In this document: positions 27,013 to 34,362 of the stretch, piece by piece
Layout: every line of letters begins with the position of its first letter
Position numbering within the stretch: position 1 is the stretch's first letter
Origin: Psychroserpens sp.
Lineage (GTDB): Bacteria; Bacteroidota; Bacteroidia; Flavobacteriales; Flavobacteriaceae
Assembly: GCA_017643165.1 (NCBI GenBank)
Contig: JAEPNY010000003.1
Location: 292,007-356,006 of the forward strand
Length of the DNA stretch: 64,000 bases
Direction of reading: 5' to 3'
Notes under the pieces: generated by a model
Databases searched by the model: none
The model's input: only the letters and a program-made list of their open reading frames with translations
Told to the model about the DNA's origin: nothing
Program-made: the position numbers and the translations under genes

Positions 27013-27954
27013 TTATTTAGTTGGTAAAGGACTTATAATTTCTACGTTTTGAAATGCTATTGCCCCTCTTATAATGCCAGATATTACATTATGTAATGCG
27101 TCAATGATTTGCATTTTTAATTCACTCTTATGATAAATGATACTAACTTCTCTGGCAGGAGATGGATCATTGAAATGATGTAGCATTCCAGTCATACGCT
27201 CATTTAAATCTAAGGTATTCAAATAAGGTAGTAAGGTCATGCCTAGACCTTCATTAGAGAGTTTGACCAATGTTTCAATACTGCCACTCTCAAGCTGAAA
27301 TTGATCATCTTCATGACTTTTAAAGGCTTTACAAAGATTTATTACACCATCTCTAAAGCAATGTCCGTCTTCTAATAATAGCATATCATTAATATCTAAA
27401 TCAGATACGTCAAGCTTCTTTTTATCCTTTAAGCGATGATCTTCTGGGATGTAACCAACGAAGGGTTCATAATATAGTACACGTTCTTTGATATTTTCAT
27501 GTTCTAATGGCGTCGCTGCAATGGCCGCGTCTAAATGACCATCTTGAATTCGAGTGATTATTTCTTCTGTCGTATGTTCTTCAATTTTGAGTTTAACCTT
27601 TGGATATTTCTTTATAAAATTCTTAAGGAACATTGGTAGGAGCGTGGGCATAATCGTTGGTATAATCCCTAATTTGAATTCGCCACCAATAAAGCCTTTT
27701 TGTTGATCTACGATATCTTGTATACGATCAGATTCGTTAACTATATTCTTGGCTTGCTGAACGATCTTTTTACCAACGTCTGTTAATTCAATTGGTTTTT
27801 TACTTCTGTCAAAAATGAGAATATCGAGTTCATCTTCAAGTTTTTGAATTTGAGTACTTAATGTAGGTTGAGTGACAAAGCATTTTTCTGCCGCTTTTGT
27901 AAAGTTCTTATGTTCGGCAATAGCGAGTACGTAATGTAATTGAGTAATGGTCAT
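27013..27954 (-). CDS. oxyR: Hydrogen peroxide sensor OxyR (LysR family)
   Basis: 313 residues: N-terminal LysR helix-turn-helix (ITQLHYVLAIAEHKNFTKAA, TQPTLSTQIQKLE) and a substrate-like domain holding Cys199 in LLEDGHCFRDG and Cys208 in INLCKA, the same numbers and context as the peroxide-sensing pair in E. coli OxyR. It should activate peroxide-defence genes when the disulfide forms. It is divergent from dps across a 102-bp A/T-rich gap, which fits direct regulation of dps. It has a C-terminal extension beyond the E. coli length. Confidence 0.93.
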   Translation of the reverse strand: MTITQLHYVLAIAEHKNFTKAAEKCFVTQPTLSTQIQKLEDELDILIFDRSKKPIELTDVGKKIVQQAKNIVNESDRIQDIVDQQKGFIGGEFKLGIIPTIMPTLLPMFLKNFIKKYPKVKLKIEEHTTEEIITRIQDGHLDAAIAATPLEHENIKERVLYYEPFVGYIPEDHRLKDKKKLDVSDLDINDMLLLEDGHCFRDGVINLCKAFKSHEDDQFQLESGSIETLVKLSNEGLGMTLLPYLNTLDLNERMTGMLHHFNDPSPAREVSIIYHKSELKMQIIDALHNVISGIIRGAIAFQNVEIISPLPTK

Positions 27955-28056: not shown

Positions 28057-28536
28057 ATGACACTAAATAGTATTGGTTTAGAAACCGAAAAAACAATGAA
28101 AATCGCCAATGAATTAAACACATTGTTGGCAAACTTTCAAATTTATTATCAGAATTTACGAGGTATTCACTGGAATATTAAAGGGAAAAGATTCTTTGAT
28201 TTACATGCTAAATTTGAAGAGCTTTATAATGATGCAAATATTAAGGTTGATGAGATAGCAGAGCGTATTTTGACCTTAGGCGTAACACCGCTACATACGT
28301 TTGAGGATTATACAAGTGCTGCTAAAGTTCCTGTGGGTAAGAATATTTCGGAAGATGAAAAAGCGGTTCAATTGATTGTAGCTTCATTAACTGAACTTTT
28401 AAAGATAGAACGTCTTATATTAGCGTCTTCAGACGAGGCTAATGATGAAGGGACCAATTCAATGATGAGTGATTTCATTACAGAACAAGAGAAAACGGTT
28501 TGGATGATGAAAGCATGGTTGGATGAAAGTATTTAA
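28057..28536 (+). CDS. dps: Dps iron-storage / DNA-protection protein
   Basis: 159 residues of the ferritin-like Dps family. The interface ferroxidase ligands are visible: His38 (RGIHWNIKG), His50, Asp65 and Glu69 (HAKFEELYNDANIKVDEIAERI). It should form a 12-subunit shell that oxidises Fe(II) with H2O2 and stores Fe(III), protecting DNA under peroxide stress. The N-terminus is short, so DNA binding may be weak. It is divergent from oxyR and ends at a strong terminator. Confidence 0.95.
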   Translation: MTLNSIGLETEKTMKIANELNTLLANFQIYYQNLRGIHWNIKGKRFFDLHAKFEELYNDANIKVDEIAERILTLGVTPLHTFEDYTSAAKVPVGKNISEDEKAVQLIVASLTELLKIERLILASSDEANDEGTNSMMSDFITEQEKTVWMMKAWLDESI

Positions 28537-28555
28537 TTAAAACAATAGATTTAAA

Positions 28556-28594
28556 TAAAAAACCCTTCAGGTTCATCTTCTGAAGGGTTTTTTT
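28556..28594. terminator. Bidirectional terminator after dps
   Basis: AAAAAACCCTTCAG, loop GTTCATCTT, CTGAAGGGTTTTTTT. It also ends the convergent lipoprotein gene. Confidence 0.9.
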
Positions 28595-28615
28595 AATAAT
28601 CAATTCAATTATCTA

Positions 28616-29971
28616 TTATTCACAATCGCGTTCAAGTATAATAAATTCATTACCTGCAGCTAGTGCAATAAATTCTTCTGTACACTCAACAACTTGCCAG
28701 TCATAATCTGACAGTTCATCAAGTGGTGTGTTGGTATTGTTAAATCCAAAGAAAACAAATACTGAATCATTCGCTGGCGTAGAATCAAGATCCCATTCGC
28801 CTTCGATTCCTTCATTAGAATTTTCAGAGAATACTTCCATAGAGCCGTCTGTATAGAATTCGGCGTATTGTGCCTGGACATTATCCCAAAGACTTGTAAC
28901 TAAGTACCAATCACATTCAGTTAGGATGGCAAATAAATCATCTTCACTACACGTATTTGGATTATTAATGTCTTCACATTCAATAAAATCAGCTTCTTCA
29001 AATCCTTCACAAATAGCGTAACAAGCGTTAGGGAATGTATAAATCTCTACCTGACCACTAGCGGTTTCTAATTCTACACATACTGGATCAAATTCTTCTG
29101 TACATTCACAATCGTCGTCATACTCATCGTAGCAATCTTCTAATAATTCGATGAAATCTAATTCATCTTCTACTGTTTCAACATCGCCTTCATCTGTAGT
29201 TACACTAAAAGGATAAACAAAATCAAAATAATATGAATTATAAAGCGCAGTATCTAATTCAGATTGAGAATTTACAGTGATCGTCTCCCCATCATCCGTA
29301 ATTATTGTAAGTGGGAAATTGAACGTAAAACACTCGTTACCACCTGTATTGTTATAATCATTTTCACAGTCTTCTGAAAAATCCTCTTCAGTAAAGCCAT
29401 CACAAAGTGCATAACACTCATTTGGATAGGTTACTAAGAACGTTTCTCCATTTGGATCTGTAATTTCTACACATACTGGATCATACTCATCAGTATAGCA
29501 TTCATCACATTCATCGTCGATATCAAAATCACAATCTTCAAGTAGGTCAATAAATTCTTCTTCGTTATTAATGGTAACAATAACAATCGCATCTGAGTCG
29601 TCGTCATAAGTTTCAACATCAAAAGGGAACGATATTCCATTAATAAATAAGTCTGAGTTTGAGTTAATTAGAATAACCACTAATTCTTCTAGACTATCAA
29701 CTGTTACAGTAGTTCCTGTATTATATGATAATGTTAATGGATAAACAAAATCGAAACAGAAATCAAATACGATATTTCCAGATGGATTCTGTGTAGGTTC
29801 AACATCTCCTTGACTGTTAAATTGAAGACTTAATTCAGATAATGAGGTAGTAATTGCAGTACTATCTTCTGTATTTGGCTCTTGTACAACTGGTTCGTCA
29901 TTAGTACAAGATGTCATAAATCCTGCAACTAGTAGAAAACTTAATAAGAATAATTTGAAATTTTTCATCAT
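28616..29971 (-). CDS. Acidic Cys-rich lipoprotein with two Kazal-like domains
   Basis: 451 residues; lipobox GFMTSC with Cys22. The body is strongly acidic and built from two related ~130-residue halves. Each half has strands FDFVYPLTL/FNFPLTIITDDGETITV, an FIDLLEDC/FIELLEDC helix, then a Kazal-like module: Cys-x-DPVC at residues ~158-167 with YPNECYALCDG to ~202, and CTEEFDPVC at ~290-298 with FPNACYAICEG to ~332. Kazal modules inhibit serine proteases; whether these do is inference. The last ~110 residues (CDWYLVTSLWDN to the end) are lipocalin-like. An ECF-type promoter motif precedes it and matches the one before fecR, tying it to the adjacent sigma factor. Confidence 0.85.
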   Translation of the reverse strand: MMKNFKLFLLSFLLVAGFMTSCTNDEPVVQEPNTEDSTAITTSLSELSLQFNSQGDVEPTQNPSGNIVFDFCFDFVYPLTLSYNTGTTVTVDSLEELVVILINSNSDLFINGISFPFDVETYDDDSDAIVIVTINNEEEFIDLLEDCDFDIDDECDECYTDEYDPVCVEITDPNGETFLVTYPNECYALCDGFTEEDFSEDCENDYNNTGGNECFTFNFPLTIITDDGETITVNSQSELDTALYNSYYFDFVYPFSVTTDEGDVETVEDELDFIELLEDCYDEYDDDCECTEEFDPVCVELETASGQVEIYTFPNACYAICEGFEEADFIECEDINNPNTCSEDDLFAILTECDWYLVTSLWDNVQAQYAEFYTDGSMEVFSENSNEGIEGEWDLDSTPANDSVFVFFGFNNTNTPLDELSDYDWQVVECTEEFIALAAGNEFIILERDCE

Positions 29972-30015
29972 AGTATTTTTACGGTTAATGATTTTTTAAA
30001 GTGATTAATCGATAC

Positions 30016-30044
30016 TAAGACAACGCACTTTTAAATAACCCTAC
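30016..30044 (-). promoter_or_regulatory. ECF-sigma-type promoter of the Kazal-like lipoprotein
   Basis: On the minus strand GTAGGGT (30044-30038), 13 bases, GTTGTCTTA (30024-30016). The same two blocks with the same 13-base spacing occur on the plus strand at 30621-30649 before fecR. The start codon of the lipoprotein is ~45 bases downstream. Confidence 0.7.
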
Positions 30045-30069
30045 TTTTTTCTTTAAATTTTTTTTTAGT

Positions 30070-30077
30070 TAGTTTTG
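30070..30077 (+). promoter_or_regulatory. Possible housekeeping -7 element of the ECF sigma gene
   Basis: TAGTTTTG matches TAnnTTTG, 24 bases before the sigma factor ATG. The -33 region holds only a T run. Confidence 0.45.
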
Positions 30078-30100
30078 AATCGTTCACGCTATTCCTTTAA

Positions 30101-30613
30101 ATGACCGAAGATCAACAGAATATTTGTAACTCCAATACTTTTGAAACCATCTATCAAAAGTATGCAAAAGATTTAAGACGTTTTCTCTTCTTTAAAACGC
30201 AAGATCTGGCGCAAGCAGAAGATATTCTTCAGGATACATTTATAAAACTGTGGAACAATTGCTCTAAGGTAAATTATGATAAAGTCAAAAGTTACCTGTA
30301 CACTGTAGCCTCAAATGCCTTTTTAAATACAGTGAAACATCAAGCGGTGGTTAGAAAACATCAATCTAGCTTAAGTCATTCTAAGACTAACGAATCTCCA
30401 GAATTTATTATGATCGAGCAGGAGTTTTTAGAAAAGCTAGAACGTGTTATTGCATCACTTCCAGATCGTCAAAGGGAAGTGTTTTTAATGAATCGAATAG
30501 ATAAAAAGAAATACAAAGAAATTGCTGTGGAACTAAATATATCTGTAAAGGCTGTTGAAAAACGCATGCATGCAGCATTAGTGGTGATGCGAAAAGAAAT
30601 TGGAAATATTTAA
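30101..30613 (+). CDS. ECF RNA polymerase sigma factor, FecI-like
   Basis: 170 residues with region 2 (TFETIYQKYAKDLRRFLFFKTQDLAQAEDILQDTF split over ~13-50; ILQDTFIKLW is diagnostic) and region 4 (LPDRQREVFLMNRIDKKKYKEIA, ISVKAVEKRMHAA) with a helix-turn-helix. It is followed by fecR and a TonB receptor with an STN signalling domain, the classic cell-surface signalling trio. It probably directs RNA polymerase to the GTAGGGT-N13-GTTGTCTTA motifs on both sides of it; that target assignment is inference from the motif pair. Confidence 0.94.
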   Translation: MTEDQQNICNSNTFETIYQKYAKDLRRFLFFKTQDLAQAEDILQDTFIKLWNNCSKVNYDKVKSYLYTVASNAFLNTVKHQAVVRKHQSSLSHSKTNESPEFIMIEQEFLEKLERVIASLPDRQREVFLMNRIDKKKYKEIAVELNISVKAVEKRMHAALVVMRKEIGNI

Positions 30614-30620
30614 ATTTATA

Positions 30621-30649
30621 GTAGGGTTTTTTTAATCCTAGTTGTCTTA
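30621..30649 (+). promoter_or_regulatory. ECF-sigma-type promoter of fecR-TonB receptor
   Basis: GTAGGGT (30621-30627), 13 bases, GTTGTCTTA (30641-30649), ending 14 bases before the fecR ATG. It lies directly after the sigma gene stop, so fecR and the receptor can be driven separately from the sigma gene. Confidence 0.7.
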
Positions 30650-30663
30650 AGTGTAGTAAAGTC

Positions 30664-31590
30664 ATGATAAAACAAGATTCACATAACGAGAATAATAGGT
30701 TTTTAGCCCAATGGTTGGCTGGAGATATTTCTGATGAACAGTTGAAATCGCTTGTATCATCGGAAGAATTTACTGCGTATACAAAAATCAGAAAAGGATT
30801 GGAAACGATTGAAGCTTTAGATGCTCCTATTGACAGTTCACTTGAGCAAATTAAAGCGCGAATGGCTAATAATGGAGGTGTCGTTAGATCATTGCAACCC
30901 CTAAGATGGGTAGTTGGTGTAGCTGCTTCCATAATTGTTTTATTCGGAATGTTCACCTTTTTAAACAACGATACGGTTAGTTTCAATACCAATTTTGGTG
31001 AACAACAAACCATTGCCCTTTTAGATGGATCAGAAGTCATATTAAATGCCAAATCTACCTTGAGCTATAACGAGGATGAATGGACTTCGAATAGATCAAT
31101 TGAATTAGATGGCGAGGCGTATTTTAAAGTCGAGAAAGGAAGCACATTTACGGTGAATACTGATAACGGTTCTGTAACTGTATTAGGAACCGAATTTGAT
31201 GTGAACGCGTTTAAAGATTATTTTGAAGTAACCTGTTATGAGGGTAAAGTACGTGTCGAAAGTCTGAACGAAAGTTTTATACTGGTCCCAGGTCAGACTG
31301 TTAGACGTATTAACGGGGATTCAGCAAATCAATGGGAATCAACCGTCGGCGCTCCAAGTTGGATAAATGGAGAGAGCTCATTTAAAAGTGTACCGATTAC
31401 TTATGTTATTGCGACCTTAGAATCGCAATATGATATCACGATTAATTCAGAAGGTATAGACGATTCGATCATATATACAGGAAGTTTTACACACGGAGAT
31501 TTGGACGTTGCATTACAAACCGTTTTTAGATCCTTAGATTTAAATTATATTGAAAAAGAAAAAGGAAACATCTATTTGAGTGCACAGTGA
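30664..31590 (+). CDS. FecR-family anti-sigma factor
   Basis: 308 residues: cytoplasmic N-terminal anti-sigma part (NRFLAQWLAGDISDEQLKSL), one membrane helix (~83-102, LRWVVGVAASIIVLFGMFTF), the periplasmic FecR domain (FGEQQTIALLDGSEVILNAKSTLSY, GEAYFKVEKGSTFTVNT, VLGTEFDVNAF) and a C-terminal DUF4974-type STN-like domain (FKSVPITYVIATLESQYDITI). It holds the adjacent sigma factor inactive until signalled by the outer-membrane receptor. Its stop overlaps the GTG start of the receptor gene by four bases (GTGA). Confidence 0.93.
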   Translation: MIKQDSHNENNRFLAQWLAGDISDEQLKSLVSSEEFTAYTKIRKGLETIEALDAPIDSSLEQIKARMANNGGVVRSLQPLRWVVGVAASIIVLFGMFTFLNNDTVSFNTNFGEQQTIALLDGSEVILNAKSTLSYNEDEWTSNRSIELDGEAYFKVEKGSTFTVNTDNGSVTVLGTEFDVNAFKDYFEVTCYEGKVRVESLNESFILVPGQTVRRINGDSANQWESTVGAPSWINGESSFKSVPITYVIATLESQYDITINSEGIDDSIIYTGSFTHGDLDVALQTVFRSLDLNYIEKEKGNIYLSAQ

Positions 31591-33887
31591 AAAAACTGAT
31601 TATTAGCATCCTACTAATTTTCCCCACTTTAGCCTTTTCGCAAGAAGAGGCTAAATTGTTCATTGGTTTTAATAATGAACCGGTAAAAGAGGCTTTTGAA
31701 CAAATCGAAACCCTATTCGATGTGCGCTTTTCATACCAGGATGAGGTCATTTCTAATAAAGTCATTACACTCAATAAAGAAAAGTGGACTTTGACGCGAC
31801 TGTTGGCCGTCATGACATCACAGACTAATTTGAGATTTGAACGTATAGCCGAGCGTTATATCATTGTAAATAATGCAAATGAAATTGCCAAGCTGCAACA
31901 ATTAGAACGCATTGTTTTAAATAGCTATTTGGCTAATGGAATATCAAAGCAAAAAAATGGATCTTACAAGATAAGACCGAATAGCCTTGGCGTATTGCCA
32001 GGATTAACGGAGCCTGATGTTCTTGAAAGTATCCAATTATTACCTGGAGTTGTAAGTCCGAATGAAACTGCTACAGGACTAATTGTGAGAGGTGGGAAGA
32101 TGGATCAAAATCGATTGATTTGGGATGGAATCAATATTTATCATAAAGGCCATTTGTTTGGAATGATCTCTCCGTTTAATCCATACGCTACAACATCCGT
32201 AGAGTTTATTAATAAAGGTACCAATCCACGATACGGCGAGCGAGCTTCGAGTGTGATTTCAATGAAAACTACCGATAAAATTGGCAGGCAAGTTAAAGCG
32301 CATATTGGATTTAATGCCATAAACACCGATGCCTTTGTTACTATTCCTATACTTAAAAATAAGCTTGGCATTCAAGCTTCTGTGAGATCAAGTTTTACCA
32401 ACCTATACCAGTCATTTACTTTTGATCAACTTGTCGATAAAGTGTTTAGAAGCACTAGGATTGGTAATTTCAATAATCCTGATAATGAGTTCAATTTTTT
32501 AGATTATAACGTTAAACTGAACTATCGACCTAGTGAAGATCACAAATTGTACGCAAGTTTGAATACTATTGAAAACGATCTCGATTATAATGTTAGTAAC
32601 GTATCTACAAATGAATCATTTAATGATGTGATGTCAATATCTAATTATGGATATGGATTTGGATGGCAGGCAAAATGGTCACCTTCTTTAAAGCAGAATA
32701 CGAAGGCCTTTTTTACCGAATATCGATTCAATTATAATTTTATCACTAGTGAAAATGATGTACAAGTGTCTGACTTTGATAAACGCAATATTATTTTTGA
32801 TTCGGGTATTTCAACTGAATTCGAAAAAACAATAAACGAGAATACGACTGTTAATCTTGGTTATCAATTTGTGCTCAAGGATGTGGCGTATGCATTTGTA
32901 AATACCACAGATTTACAATTCATCTTAGATCAGGATAAATCGGTTATTCGCACACATAGTCTATTCGCTAATTATGAATATCGAAATCCGAAATTATTTG
33001 ATGTGTCTTTCGGGCTCCGTGGTTCTTATTTTCACGAGTTGGAAGCTTATAGGTTTGAACCTCGATTGCTGGTCTATAAGCCTTTATTTAAAAACTTAAA
33101 ACTTCAGGTTTCAGGAGAGATTAAGAATCAAGTTATAAGTGAGATTGATGAAACTATTATATCTGATTTGGCATTAGAGAATCGCTTGTGGCGTTTGGCG
33201 AATGGAAGTGAATTTCCAATTATTAACAGCAAACAGGTTTCCGCAGGTTTAATTTATACCAATAATGGCTGGACGATCGACATAGATAATTATTACAAAA
33301 CCATCGATAATGTTACTGCACTTTCGTTTGGTTTTTTGAATCCAATTAATAGTCAGTTTAATATTGGAGAACAGCGAATTTTCGGAGTGGATCTCTTTGT
33401 TAAAAAACGATGGAATGAGTTTAATTCATGGATCAGTTATTCATATAACAATTCTGAAAGTCGTTATGATAATTTGAACGCTGACAAATTCTTTACGTCT
33501 AGAACCAACGTAAGACATATGATAAGCTCATCGTTAAGTTATAACATTGCAAATTTTCAAGTCGCTTTAGGTTGGCGATGGCAAACTGGGAAGCCATTTA
33601 CGTTATCTACACCAGGACCTAACGGTTTAGAATTTAACGACGGCATTAATACGGAACGCTTACCAGATTACCATAGGCTCGATATATCTTCTACCTATAA
33701 ATTCAAATTTTCAAACTCAAGTAAACTGCGTGCTAAAGTTGGTATTTCACTTCGGAATGTGTACGATCGAGAGAATCTTATTAGTCGCGAATATTTAGGA
33801 AATAATGACTTCAGTGGTGAGATAGAGGCGATTGACCGTTTTTCTCTCGGATTTACACCAAATGTCATGTTTCGATTATACTGGTAA
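31587..33887 (+). CDS. TonB-dependent receptor with N-terminal STN signalling domain
   Basis: 766 residues, signal peptide MKKLIISILLIFPTLAFSQ from a GTG start. STN domain ~20-95 (NEPVKEAFEQIETLFDVRFSY), plug ~125-240 (SIQLLPGVVSPNETATGLIVRGG, QNRLIWDGINIYHKGHLFG) and a 22-strand-type barrel ending in an aromatic residue (MFRLYW). There is no SusD partner, and it is shorter than SusC, so it is more like a siderophore or metal-complex receptor (FecA type). Substrate unknown. It should signal through FecR to the ECF factor. The convergent terminator follows at once. Confidence 0.92.
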   Translation: MKKLIISILLIFPTLAFSQEEAKLFIGFNNEPVKEAFEQIETLFDVRFSYQDEVISNKVITLNKEKWTLTRLLAVMTSQTNLRFERIAERYIIVNNANEIAKLQQLERIVLNSYLANGISKQKNGSYKIRPNSLGVLPGLTEPDVLESIQLLPGVVSPNETATGLIVRGGKMDQNRLIWDGINIYHKGHLFGMISPFNPYATTSVEFINKGTNPRYGERASSVISMKTTDKIGRQVKAHIGFNAINTDAFVTIPILKNKLGIQASVRSSFTNLYQSFTFDQLVDKVFRSTRIGNFNNPDNEFNFLDYNVKLNYRPSEDHKLYASLNTIENDLDYNVSNVSTNESFNDVMSISNYGYGFGWQAKWSPSLKQNTKAFFTEYRFNYNFITSENDVQVSDFDKRNIIFDSGISTEFEKTINENTTVNLGYQFVLKDVAYAFVNTTDLQFILDQDKSVIRTHSLFANYEYRNPKLFDVSFGLRGSYFHELEAYRFEPRLLVYKPLFKNLKLQVSGEIKNQVISEIDETIISDLALENRLWRLANGSEFPIINSKQVSAGLIYTNNGWTIDIDNYYKTIDNVTALSFGFLNPINSQFNIGEQRIFGVDLFVKKRWNEFNSWISYSYNNSESRYDNLNADKFFTSRTNVRHMISSSLSYNIANFQVALGWRWQTGKPFTLSTPGPNGLEFNDGINTERLPDYHRLDISSTYKFKFSNSSKLRAKVGISLRNVYDRENLISREYLGNNDFSGEIEAIDRFSLGFTPNVMFRLYW

Positions 33888-33888
33888 A

Positions 33889-33915
33889 AAAAATCTTCCC
33901 GAAGGAAGATTTTTA
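33889..33915. terminator. Bidirectional terminator
   Basis: AAAAATCTTCC, loop CGAA, GGAAGATTTTT right after the receptor stop; the convergent DUF2141 gene ends on the other side. The following bases hold several GATTGAT repeats with no assigned role. Confidence 0.85.
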
Positions 33916-33948
33916 TTGATTGATGTGTTTTTGATTGATGGATTGATA

Positions 33949-34362
33949 TTATAATCGGATTGTTATTTCGAGATCTTTATCAACATTAAATTTGGCGTCA
34001 TCGTAAATTGGTGGTCCAAAACTTCTAGTATTATTTGAAGTACCATAAGATTCTTTAGGCATACCATTTTCTTCAAAATCCATACGGTTATTTTCATTTT
34101 TATCGTGGAGTACTAGTAATGCATACTCTCCTGGATTTACATTTTCAAAAGTGAATGTTGCTTTTCCGTCTATAATTTTGGCTTCTAAGTTTTGAATCCC
34201 AGCGCCTCTCATAAATGTATCAGCTGTATGTAGTGCGATTGCTGCTTTTCCTTCGTTGCTAGTAAAGTTTTCTACAACAACTGTAATGGTGTTTTTAGTT
34301 TCATTTTGCGTAAATCCTAAAGTAGAAATACAAAGTGCGATTGTTACAAATAATGTTTTCAT
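33949..34362 (-). CDS. DUF2141 secreted protein
   Basis: 137 residues, signal peptide MKTLFVTIALCISTLGFTQ. DUF2141 pattern: TITVVVENFTSNEGKAAIALH, FTFENVNPGEYALLVLHDKNENNRMD with an EF-hand-like DKNENNRMDFEENG loop, then ESYGTSNNTRSFGPPIYDDAKF. The fold is an immunoglobulin-like beta sandwich; role unknown. It stands alone between two transcription units. Confidence 0.85.
   Translation of the reverse strand: MKTLFVTIALCISTLGFTQNETKNTITVVVENFTSNEGKAAIALHTADTFMRGAGIQNLEAKIIDGKATFTFENVNPGEYALLVLHDKNENNRMDFEENGMPKESYGTSNNTRSFGPPIYDDAKFNVDKDLEITIRL

Follow-up and report, generated by a model that had tools for sequence, protein, structure and literature searches.

In the Fec system of Escherichia coli (FecI-FecR-FecA), the sigma factor gene is read by the housekeeping sigma factor and is not autoregulated, fecR lies with fecI on one transcript of housekeeping type, and the fecA promoter is the only one under FecI control (PMC9249621). 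Within the Bacteroidota, 50 ECF sigma factors have been counted in Bacteroides thetaiotaomicron, two of which, SigW-1 and SigH-1, are linked to promoters with a TGTT near the -10 position (PMC12596196), and a non-canonical promoter motif, PM2, has been described in the same species (PMC7366714). A map of transcription start sites in Flavobacterium psychrophilum ascribes the motif SM6, with its CGT -10 box, to ECF sigma factors, and identifies TAnnTTTG as the element of the housekeeping sigma factor (PMC9723704). According to Todor et al. (2020), as summarized in PMC11588781, a few residue-base pairs govern ECF specificity.

The window, by which we mean the whole 64,000-nucleotide stretch of Psychroserpens DNA that was analyzed, contains a locus that, judged by its gene content, is a cell-surface signaling cassette of the FecI/FecR/TonB-receptor kind, a known kind. 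Its features are the following.

28616..29971, minus strand: divergent gene for an acidic secreted lipoprotein (451 aa; lipobox Cys22; start at 29971)
30016..30044, minus strand: predicted ECF promoter of the lipoprotein gene (-35 GTAGGGT, 30044-30038; -10 GTTGTCTTA, 30024-30016)
30070..30077, plus strand: housekeeping-type -7 box TAGTTTTG (TAnnTTTG) of the sigma gene, 31 nt before the ATG
30101..30613, plus strand: gene for a FecI-type ECF sigma factor (170 aa), between both ECF sites
30621..30649, plus strand: predicted ECF promoter of fecR and the receptor gene (-35 GTAGGGT, 30621-30627; -10 GTTGTCTTA, 30641-30649)
30664..31590, plus strand: gene for a FecR-type anti-sigma factor/transducer (308 aa)
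31587..33887, plus strand: gene for a TonB-dependent receptor (766 aa) with an N-terminal signaling-type (FecR_C/STN-like) domain, overlapping fecR by 4 nt

Hairpins with T-runs are visible by eye after the receptor gene (~33890-33915) and after the lipoprotein gene (~28557-28593). The sigma factor scores 132.3 bits against a cut-off of 126.4 with TIGR02985 (Sig70_bacteroi1), which places it among the ECF sigma factors of the FecI-like or Bacteroidota type, and exceeds the cut-offs of the Pfam models Sigma70_r2 and r4_2; FecI-specific models stay far under theirs (78.6 of 260 and 76.9 of 185). The protein encoded 3' of the sigma gene is recognized as FecR by the Pfam models FecR (70.5 bits) and FecR_C (28.6 bits), each above its cut-off, and falls far under that of the equivalog model for the ferric citrate FecR of the E. 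coli type (42.8 of 385). The receptor combines a barrel (62.1 bits) with FecR_C at residues 28-94 (30.1 bits), both above cut-off, and is thereby assigned as a receptor with an N-terminal signaling domain; Plug lies slightly under its cut-off (23.5 bits; cut-off 23.9) and STN is also under (13.5 vs 28.4).

By eye, the divergently encoded lipoprotein shows two DPVC...NxCYAxC modules that weakly resemble Kazal domains, and the cysteines in this spacing are conserved in the 30 proteins aligned. The search for a Kazal-type inhibitor domain gave Kazal_2 at E 0.02 and 15.5 bits, under the cut-off of 22.8; a role as protease inhibitor is no more than a lead, taken from the cysteine pattern. Across related loci the protein ranges from ~300 to 610 aa, with cysteine-rich modules apparently gained and lost. 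Orthologous loci supply 70 complete divergent ORFs, of which 58 pass the lipobox pattern, although the gene in this position is unrelated at some loci. Rfam returned no match at gathering score for window positions 28500-34100, and generic scans of 28500-34000 gave no excess over shuffles for sigma-70 promoters (24 vs 24.8) or terminators (3 vs 2.6).

The Psychroserpens cassette thus shares with E. coli Fec the ECF sigma factor, FecR, and a TonB receptor with an N-terminal signaling domain, as well as, by inference here, a sigma gene that is read by the housekeeping sigma factor and not autoregulated. Unlike E. coli fec, it has an ECF-type site before fecR and a second ECF site facing a divergent lipoprotein gene. 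The E. coli layout, in which fecR depends on the fecI transcript and has no separate ECF site, is therefore not found here, and read-through from the sigma gene could nonetheless still reach fecR.

The preliminary description had reported two exact copies of GTAGGGT-N13-GTTGTCTTA, identically spaced and lying on either side of the sigma gene, and the window and genome scans bear this out. The copies face outwards: the minus-strand copy occupies 30044-30016, the plus-strand copy 30621-30649, and the sigma gene (30101-30613) lies between them. Even at up to three mismatches the same two sites are the only ones in the window, where shuffled sequence yields a mean of 0.29 sites and two or more in 3 of 100 shuffles. 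In the genome (3,142,098 bases on 8 contigs) the pair is unique, with two sites at zero mismatches, none at one or two, and 15 at three, a level at which the reversed-pattern control gives 36. We rejected chance or artefact as the origin of the pair on the strength of the shuffles, the genome scan, and the conservation at orthologous loci described below. The 13-nt spacers do differ, as previously noted, but they are not wholly free: at orthologous loci, A or T occupies each of the first three positions almost without exception, mostly as [T/A]TT. From the numbering established for sigma-H (PMC6411747), transcription is predicted to start near 30655 on the plus strand and near 30010 on the minus strand, which would give fecR a leader of ~9 nt.

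For the comparison of orthologous loci we took the best 80 of 457 relatives from a contig scan with the sigma protein, which with the window make 81 loci, mostly from Psychroserpens and Winogradskyella and thinning to Kordia, Aquimarina, and one Pedobacter. On each side a best site was found in 80 of the 81, the exceptions being L067, which is cut at a contig end and is without a fecR-side site, and L073, which has little upstream sequence and is without a divergent-side site. An exact GTAGGGT forms the -35 element in 75 of 80 fecR-side and 68 of 80 divergent-side sites, and in 66 of the 81 loci both sites combine it with a GT core at 13 nt. Such counts follow in part from the method, because the site caller allowed at most two changes in the -35 element and preferred GTAGGGT and GT, and they are not independent, because the 81 loci are related. 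The spacing was not built into the caller: when GTAGGGT was paired with -10-like 9-mers over spacers of 6-23 nt, 119 of 121 pairings fell at 13. A -35 element and a GT-containing -10 element at this fixed spacing characterize the sites as ECF-type. The motif is thus conserved at orthologous loci, with both sites kept in Psychroserpens, Winogradskyella, and beyond, and the lack of conservation that the preliminary description had named as a ground for refutation is not observed. The median distance to the start codon is 14 nt for fecR and 48.5 nt for the divergent gene; in five Kordia loci the mirror site is present with no divergent ORF called beside it. Within the genus, GTAGGGT-N14-TTGTNNTA occurs in 19 of 23 genomes, each time at the sigma locus, and the four genomes without it (G003, G006, G015, and G022) are exactly those without a sigma orthologue, their best sigma matches being 41-47% identical.

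Cassettes of this type are widespread in the family. A relative of the sigma factor at E 1e-25 or better is present in at least 179 of the 249 family genomes searched. The set was enlarged by 100 stretches, of which 20 come from the genus and 80 were picked by hand among the matches listed. Of the resulting 181 loci, eight are without a sigma ORF (L067, and L149-L155, which had been taken for other sites), and in nine more a FecR was not called. The 164 cassettes that remain comprise the window, 77 named loci, and a diverse set of 86, at least six of which share sites with named loci, probably as the same genomes, and were kept in the counts. A motif-free test compared the fecR side with the reverse-complemented upstream side and scored the best 7+9 match at 13-nt spacing. 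This score was matched by none of 20 shuffles in 128 of the 164 cassettes (62 of the 86 diverse ones) and exceeded that of the wrong orientation in 153 (78 of the diverse ones). With a hand-made profile at a threshold chosen by the analyst, sites were called before fecR in 156 of the 164 cassettes and facing the divergent gene in 155, and 149 cassettes have the two together. The wrong-strand controls are 2 and 44, respectively, the latter from a longer scanned stretch; 15 cassettes were without one or both sites at this threshold. The corresponding numbers for the 86 diverse cassettes are 78, 80, and 74, with wrong-strand controls of 1 and 18.

The paired layout is accordingly a general feature of a large cassette family rather than a local oddity, a point on which the preliminary description is corrected, and the motif varies by subfamily: GTAGGGT..GTTGTCTTA here, GTAGGA..CTGTTATA in a sister cassette of the same genus (cassette B, below), and TCAGGAG..GTTGTTATA, CTAGGGT..CTGTT, and ATAGGGT..ATGTATTA in others. 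Of 299 family genomes, no more than 24 contain GTAGGGT-N13-RTTGTMTTA (the reversed control gave none among the genomes listed), and many of these matches belong to paralogue cassettes of the GTAGGGTAAA type; the exact motif is therefore a trait of the subfamily of the window sigma and some relatives, not of the family. On the divergent side of four loci in other flavobacterial genomes (L119, L128, L129, and L132, the last from the same genome as L146), we observed two tandem GTAGGGT-type sites ~150-170 nt apart.

Bases of the flanking sites covary with residues of the sigma factor. A plain comparison of sites within and between cassettes did not discriminate (scores of 16: 13.97 within; 14.52 between cassettes at sigma identities of 0.7-0.9 and 14.11 at 0.6-0.7) and was dropped as evidence. 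Covariation was scored in the 149 cassettes that have a site on either side, which at 70% identity amount to an effective number of 43.9. Averaging over the two sites, the best sigma column for -35 position 1 is K154 (0.43, next 0.24), that for -35 position 6 is Y138 (0.59, followed by F74 of the other domain at 0.32), and that for -10 position 3 is N76 (0.44, next 0.14). Residue 154 pairs with -35 position 1 as K:G, R:A, Y:T, and Q:C, with exceptions in which K154 stands with a base other than G in three fecR-side and eight divergent-side sites; residue 76 pairs with -10 position 3 as N:T, D or S:C, and K:G, with N76 at a base other than T in four sites on each side and one S76 at T.

On a sigma tree built without the columns under test, all three residue changes at 154 and all three at 76 share a branch with a base change on the fecR side (expected 0.06 each), as do two of three at each residue on the divergent side (expected 0.10 and 0.07). 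A random-branch null reached the observed maximum over 170 columns in 4 (residue 154) and 8 (residue 76) of 2000 trials, which were run per promoter position and are uncorrected for the 29 positions scanned, and these two best links rest on three events each. Residues 124 and 151 also score high with -35 position 1 (z 6.6 and 5.5), the link of residue 138 (and 157) to -35 position 6 is a single event, and the top column for -10 position 6 is Q34, outside the specificity loop, with residues 62 and 61 second and fourth by mutual information; by our mapping the latter two would fall within the stretch corresponding to the sigma-H specificity loop.

The sigma factor aligns to solved ECF sigma factors, the alignments obtained being to SigE, SigW, and SigL and not to sigma-H; by the spacing of named residues, we map 154 to S182 and 76 to N92 of sigma-H. 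In sigma-H, S182 contacts the -35 element and its change to alanine impaired transcription, and N92 contacts the -11 base pair (PMC6411747). Our mapping would place the GTC of the -10 element at -11 to -9. Residues 154 and 76 would each lie in the domain expected to read the element with which it covaries, the -35 and the -10, respectively. Since the sites change together with the sigma protein, each cassette very probably displays the DNA that its own sigma factor reads. Conservation, co-loss, and covariation together indicate that the local sigma factor very probably drives the lipoprotein gene in one direction and fecR and the receptor gene in the other, in keeping with the three-gene regulon originally proposed.

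The sigma gene itself had been credited with a housekeeping-type -7 element, and this proved to be conserved: in 72 of 80 loci, TAnnTTTG stands no more than 60 nt upstream of the sigma ATG, where mononucleotide shuffles predict 4.0, and 44 of these 72 boxes begin 30-32 nt ahead of the ATG. Measured from the outer end of the divergent ECF -35 element, the -7 box lies exactly 24 bp away in 46 of the 72 loci and 25 bp away in four; the window has 25 bp. Two polymerases could not be accommodated at a spacing of 24 bp, and the two promoters would therefore be expected to compete.

Many ECF sigma systems are described as autoregulated, and the sigma factor might likewise drive its own gene through an unrecognized site or by read-through. 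This is the most durable of the alternatives and still an improbable one: an ECF-like site on the sigma gene's own strand within 400 nt upstream is present in just two of the 79 loci scored (L015 and L073; up to four mismatches and spacers of 12-14 nt, with 80 loci given, L067 lacking a stop codon), and the conserved TAnnTTTG box in that position points to the housekeeping sigma factor instead.

Slightly less probable still is that the sites, although ECF promoters, serve chiefly a different ECF sigma factor of the genome, such as the paralogue of cassette B (47% identical), or several with overlapping specificity. Paralogues do use related motifs, overlapping ECF regulons have been suggested in F. 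psychrophilum (PMC9723704), and a third, intermediate site bears on the question. This site, GTAGGGT-N13-CTTGTTTAA, lies elsewhere in the genome, at G000:C1:88686-88714 (L003 1501-1529), between an asd-like gene and a gene for a cytochrome-type lipoprotein. The G001 orthologue of the cytochrome-type protein scores 305.6, below the cut-off of 313.3, with the model of the SO2930-family diheme cytochrome, and the adjacent gene in G001 encodes a T9SS sorting domain. Across 19 alleles, drawn from 18 genomes with the local sigma factor, TAGGGT and TGTT at 13 nt form a conserved island; left out of this count were G003, G022, G013, a partial second match in G016 (L271), and the more distant L272-L277. 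Among genomes without the local sigma factor, G015 has a damaged -35 element (GTAGGTT), G006 keeps TAGGGT and TGTT in register, and in G003, where the gene start is uncertain, the sole candidate is GTAGGGG..TTTGTTCTA, at a different position. No match to the cytochrome-type gene was found in G022, and G013, which has the sigma factor, holds a distant relative alone. Because G006 keeps the core of the site without the local sigma factor, the third site is not strictly dependent on that factor, and we did not accept it as proof of a wider regulon; the existence of a related site elsewhere in the genome nevertheless qualifies the preliminary description. A second conserved block, CTTGTTGTCTGATAAAAAGTGTATTACAACTAATTAATT, lies ~100 nt upstream of the cytochrome-type start codon, between the ECF-like site and the gene (L248-L267 and L270).

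Against control by another sigma factor, cassette B has a distinct matched pair of its own (GTAGG[A/G]..TGTT), and GTAGGGT-N14-TTGTNNTA is missing in exactly the four genus genomes without the local sigma factor, three of which keep cassette B. Cassette B itself is found at G000:C6:14346-14834 (L148 5338-6089), with orthologues in L158, L160, L161, L166, and L278-L294. In Psychroserpens its mirror ECF promoter faces ffh and is followed, before ffh, by a conserved stretch and a terminator-like hairpin with a T-run; a search pattern for stretch and hairpin fits 19 of 22 genomes, and the remaining three are alike by eye. The stretch is 89-171 nt long, counted from near the expected start, and the hairpin appears by eye to vary at paired positions. 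Rfam gave no match to the hairpin in L148 5800-6120 up to E 1. We regard the product of this mirror promoter as a candidate ECF-driven small RNA. Its counterpart in G027 and G028 precedes, by eye, a lipoprotein-like reading frame instead.

Finally, conserved outward-facing sites could serve as operators of a separate DNA-binding activator or repressor, and a LysR-type-looking ORF is seen by eye at 27013-27954, but we consider this very improbable, given the near-invariant 13-nt spacing, a GT core of the kind known from further ECF -10 elements (PMC6411747), the placement at median distances of 14 and 48.5 nt from the start codons, the loss of the sites together with the sigma gene, and the covariation of their bases with sigma residues of the matching domains.

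Taken as a whole, the gene content, the sites, and their conservation, spacing, and covariation, all of which are observations on the DNA, are in our judgment best explained, with high probability, by a circuit in which the local sigma factor, held by FecR, drives both outward promoters and its own gene stays outside the regulon. In this circuit the housekeeping sigma factor would transcribe the sigma gene, and FecR would hold the product. A ligand would bind the receptor, perhaps together with the surface lipoprotein, and the N-terminal domain of the receptor would signal to FecR, leading to release of the sigma factor. The freed sigma factor would direct RNA polymerase to the two GTAGGGT-N13-GTTGTCTTA promoters, one yielding the lipoprotein and the other FecR and the receptor. 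Because the sigma gene lies outside its own regulon, activation would raise the anti-sigma factor and not the sigma factor, a built-in brake; with fecR and the receptor gene inside the regulon, the circuit should be self-limiting. Moreover, since the ECF -35 element lies 24-25 bp from the -7 box, a polymerase on the lipoprotein promoter should block the sigma promoter, and activation may thus occlude it. A more far-reaching joint reading, which we offer tentatively and think rather unlikely to hold in every part, is that the Flavobacteriaceae hold a large family of cassettes, each flanked on both sides by the promoter of its own sigma factor, that the ~24-bp arrangement acts as a lock through which activation shuts off sigma synthesis by occlusion, and that the mirror promoter of Psychroserpens cassette B produces a conserved, terminated small RNA of ~90-170 nt under ECF control.

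Like the Psychroserpens sites, promoters tied to ECF sigma factors in B. thetaiotaomicron have a TGTT near -10; there, the motif at the SigW-1 sites is not significant, SigW-1 acts on a distant sulfatase-encoding locus, and the portions of the reports examined contain no matched outward-facing pair, unlike the situation here. In F. psychrophilum, SM6 precedes T9SS and other genes, its ECF sigma factor is left open (PMC9723704), and the text examined contains no promoter of a FecI-FecR cassette, again unlike Psychroserpens. With respect to Todor et al. (2020), as known from the summary cited above, the residue-base pairs here come from sites around the sigma gene and not in front of it. A literature search of titles and abstract openings did not find the motif, the layout, the promoter set, or the residue-base pairs, and an earlier description may exist; the kind of system is known.

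Bacteroidota genomes are rich in ECF sigma factors, few of which have known promoters. If every cassette carries two copies of the promoter of its own sigma factor, sequence would suffice to match sigma factors to promoters, and the ECF recognition code of the Bacteroidota would become directly testable, the regulons of uncharacterized surface-signaling systems predictable, and candidate orthogonal expression parts available. A circuit with the anti-sigma factor and the receptor inside the regulon and the sigma factor outside would also differ from the textbook fec operon.
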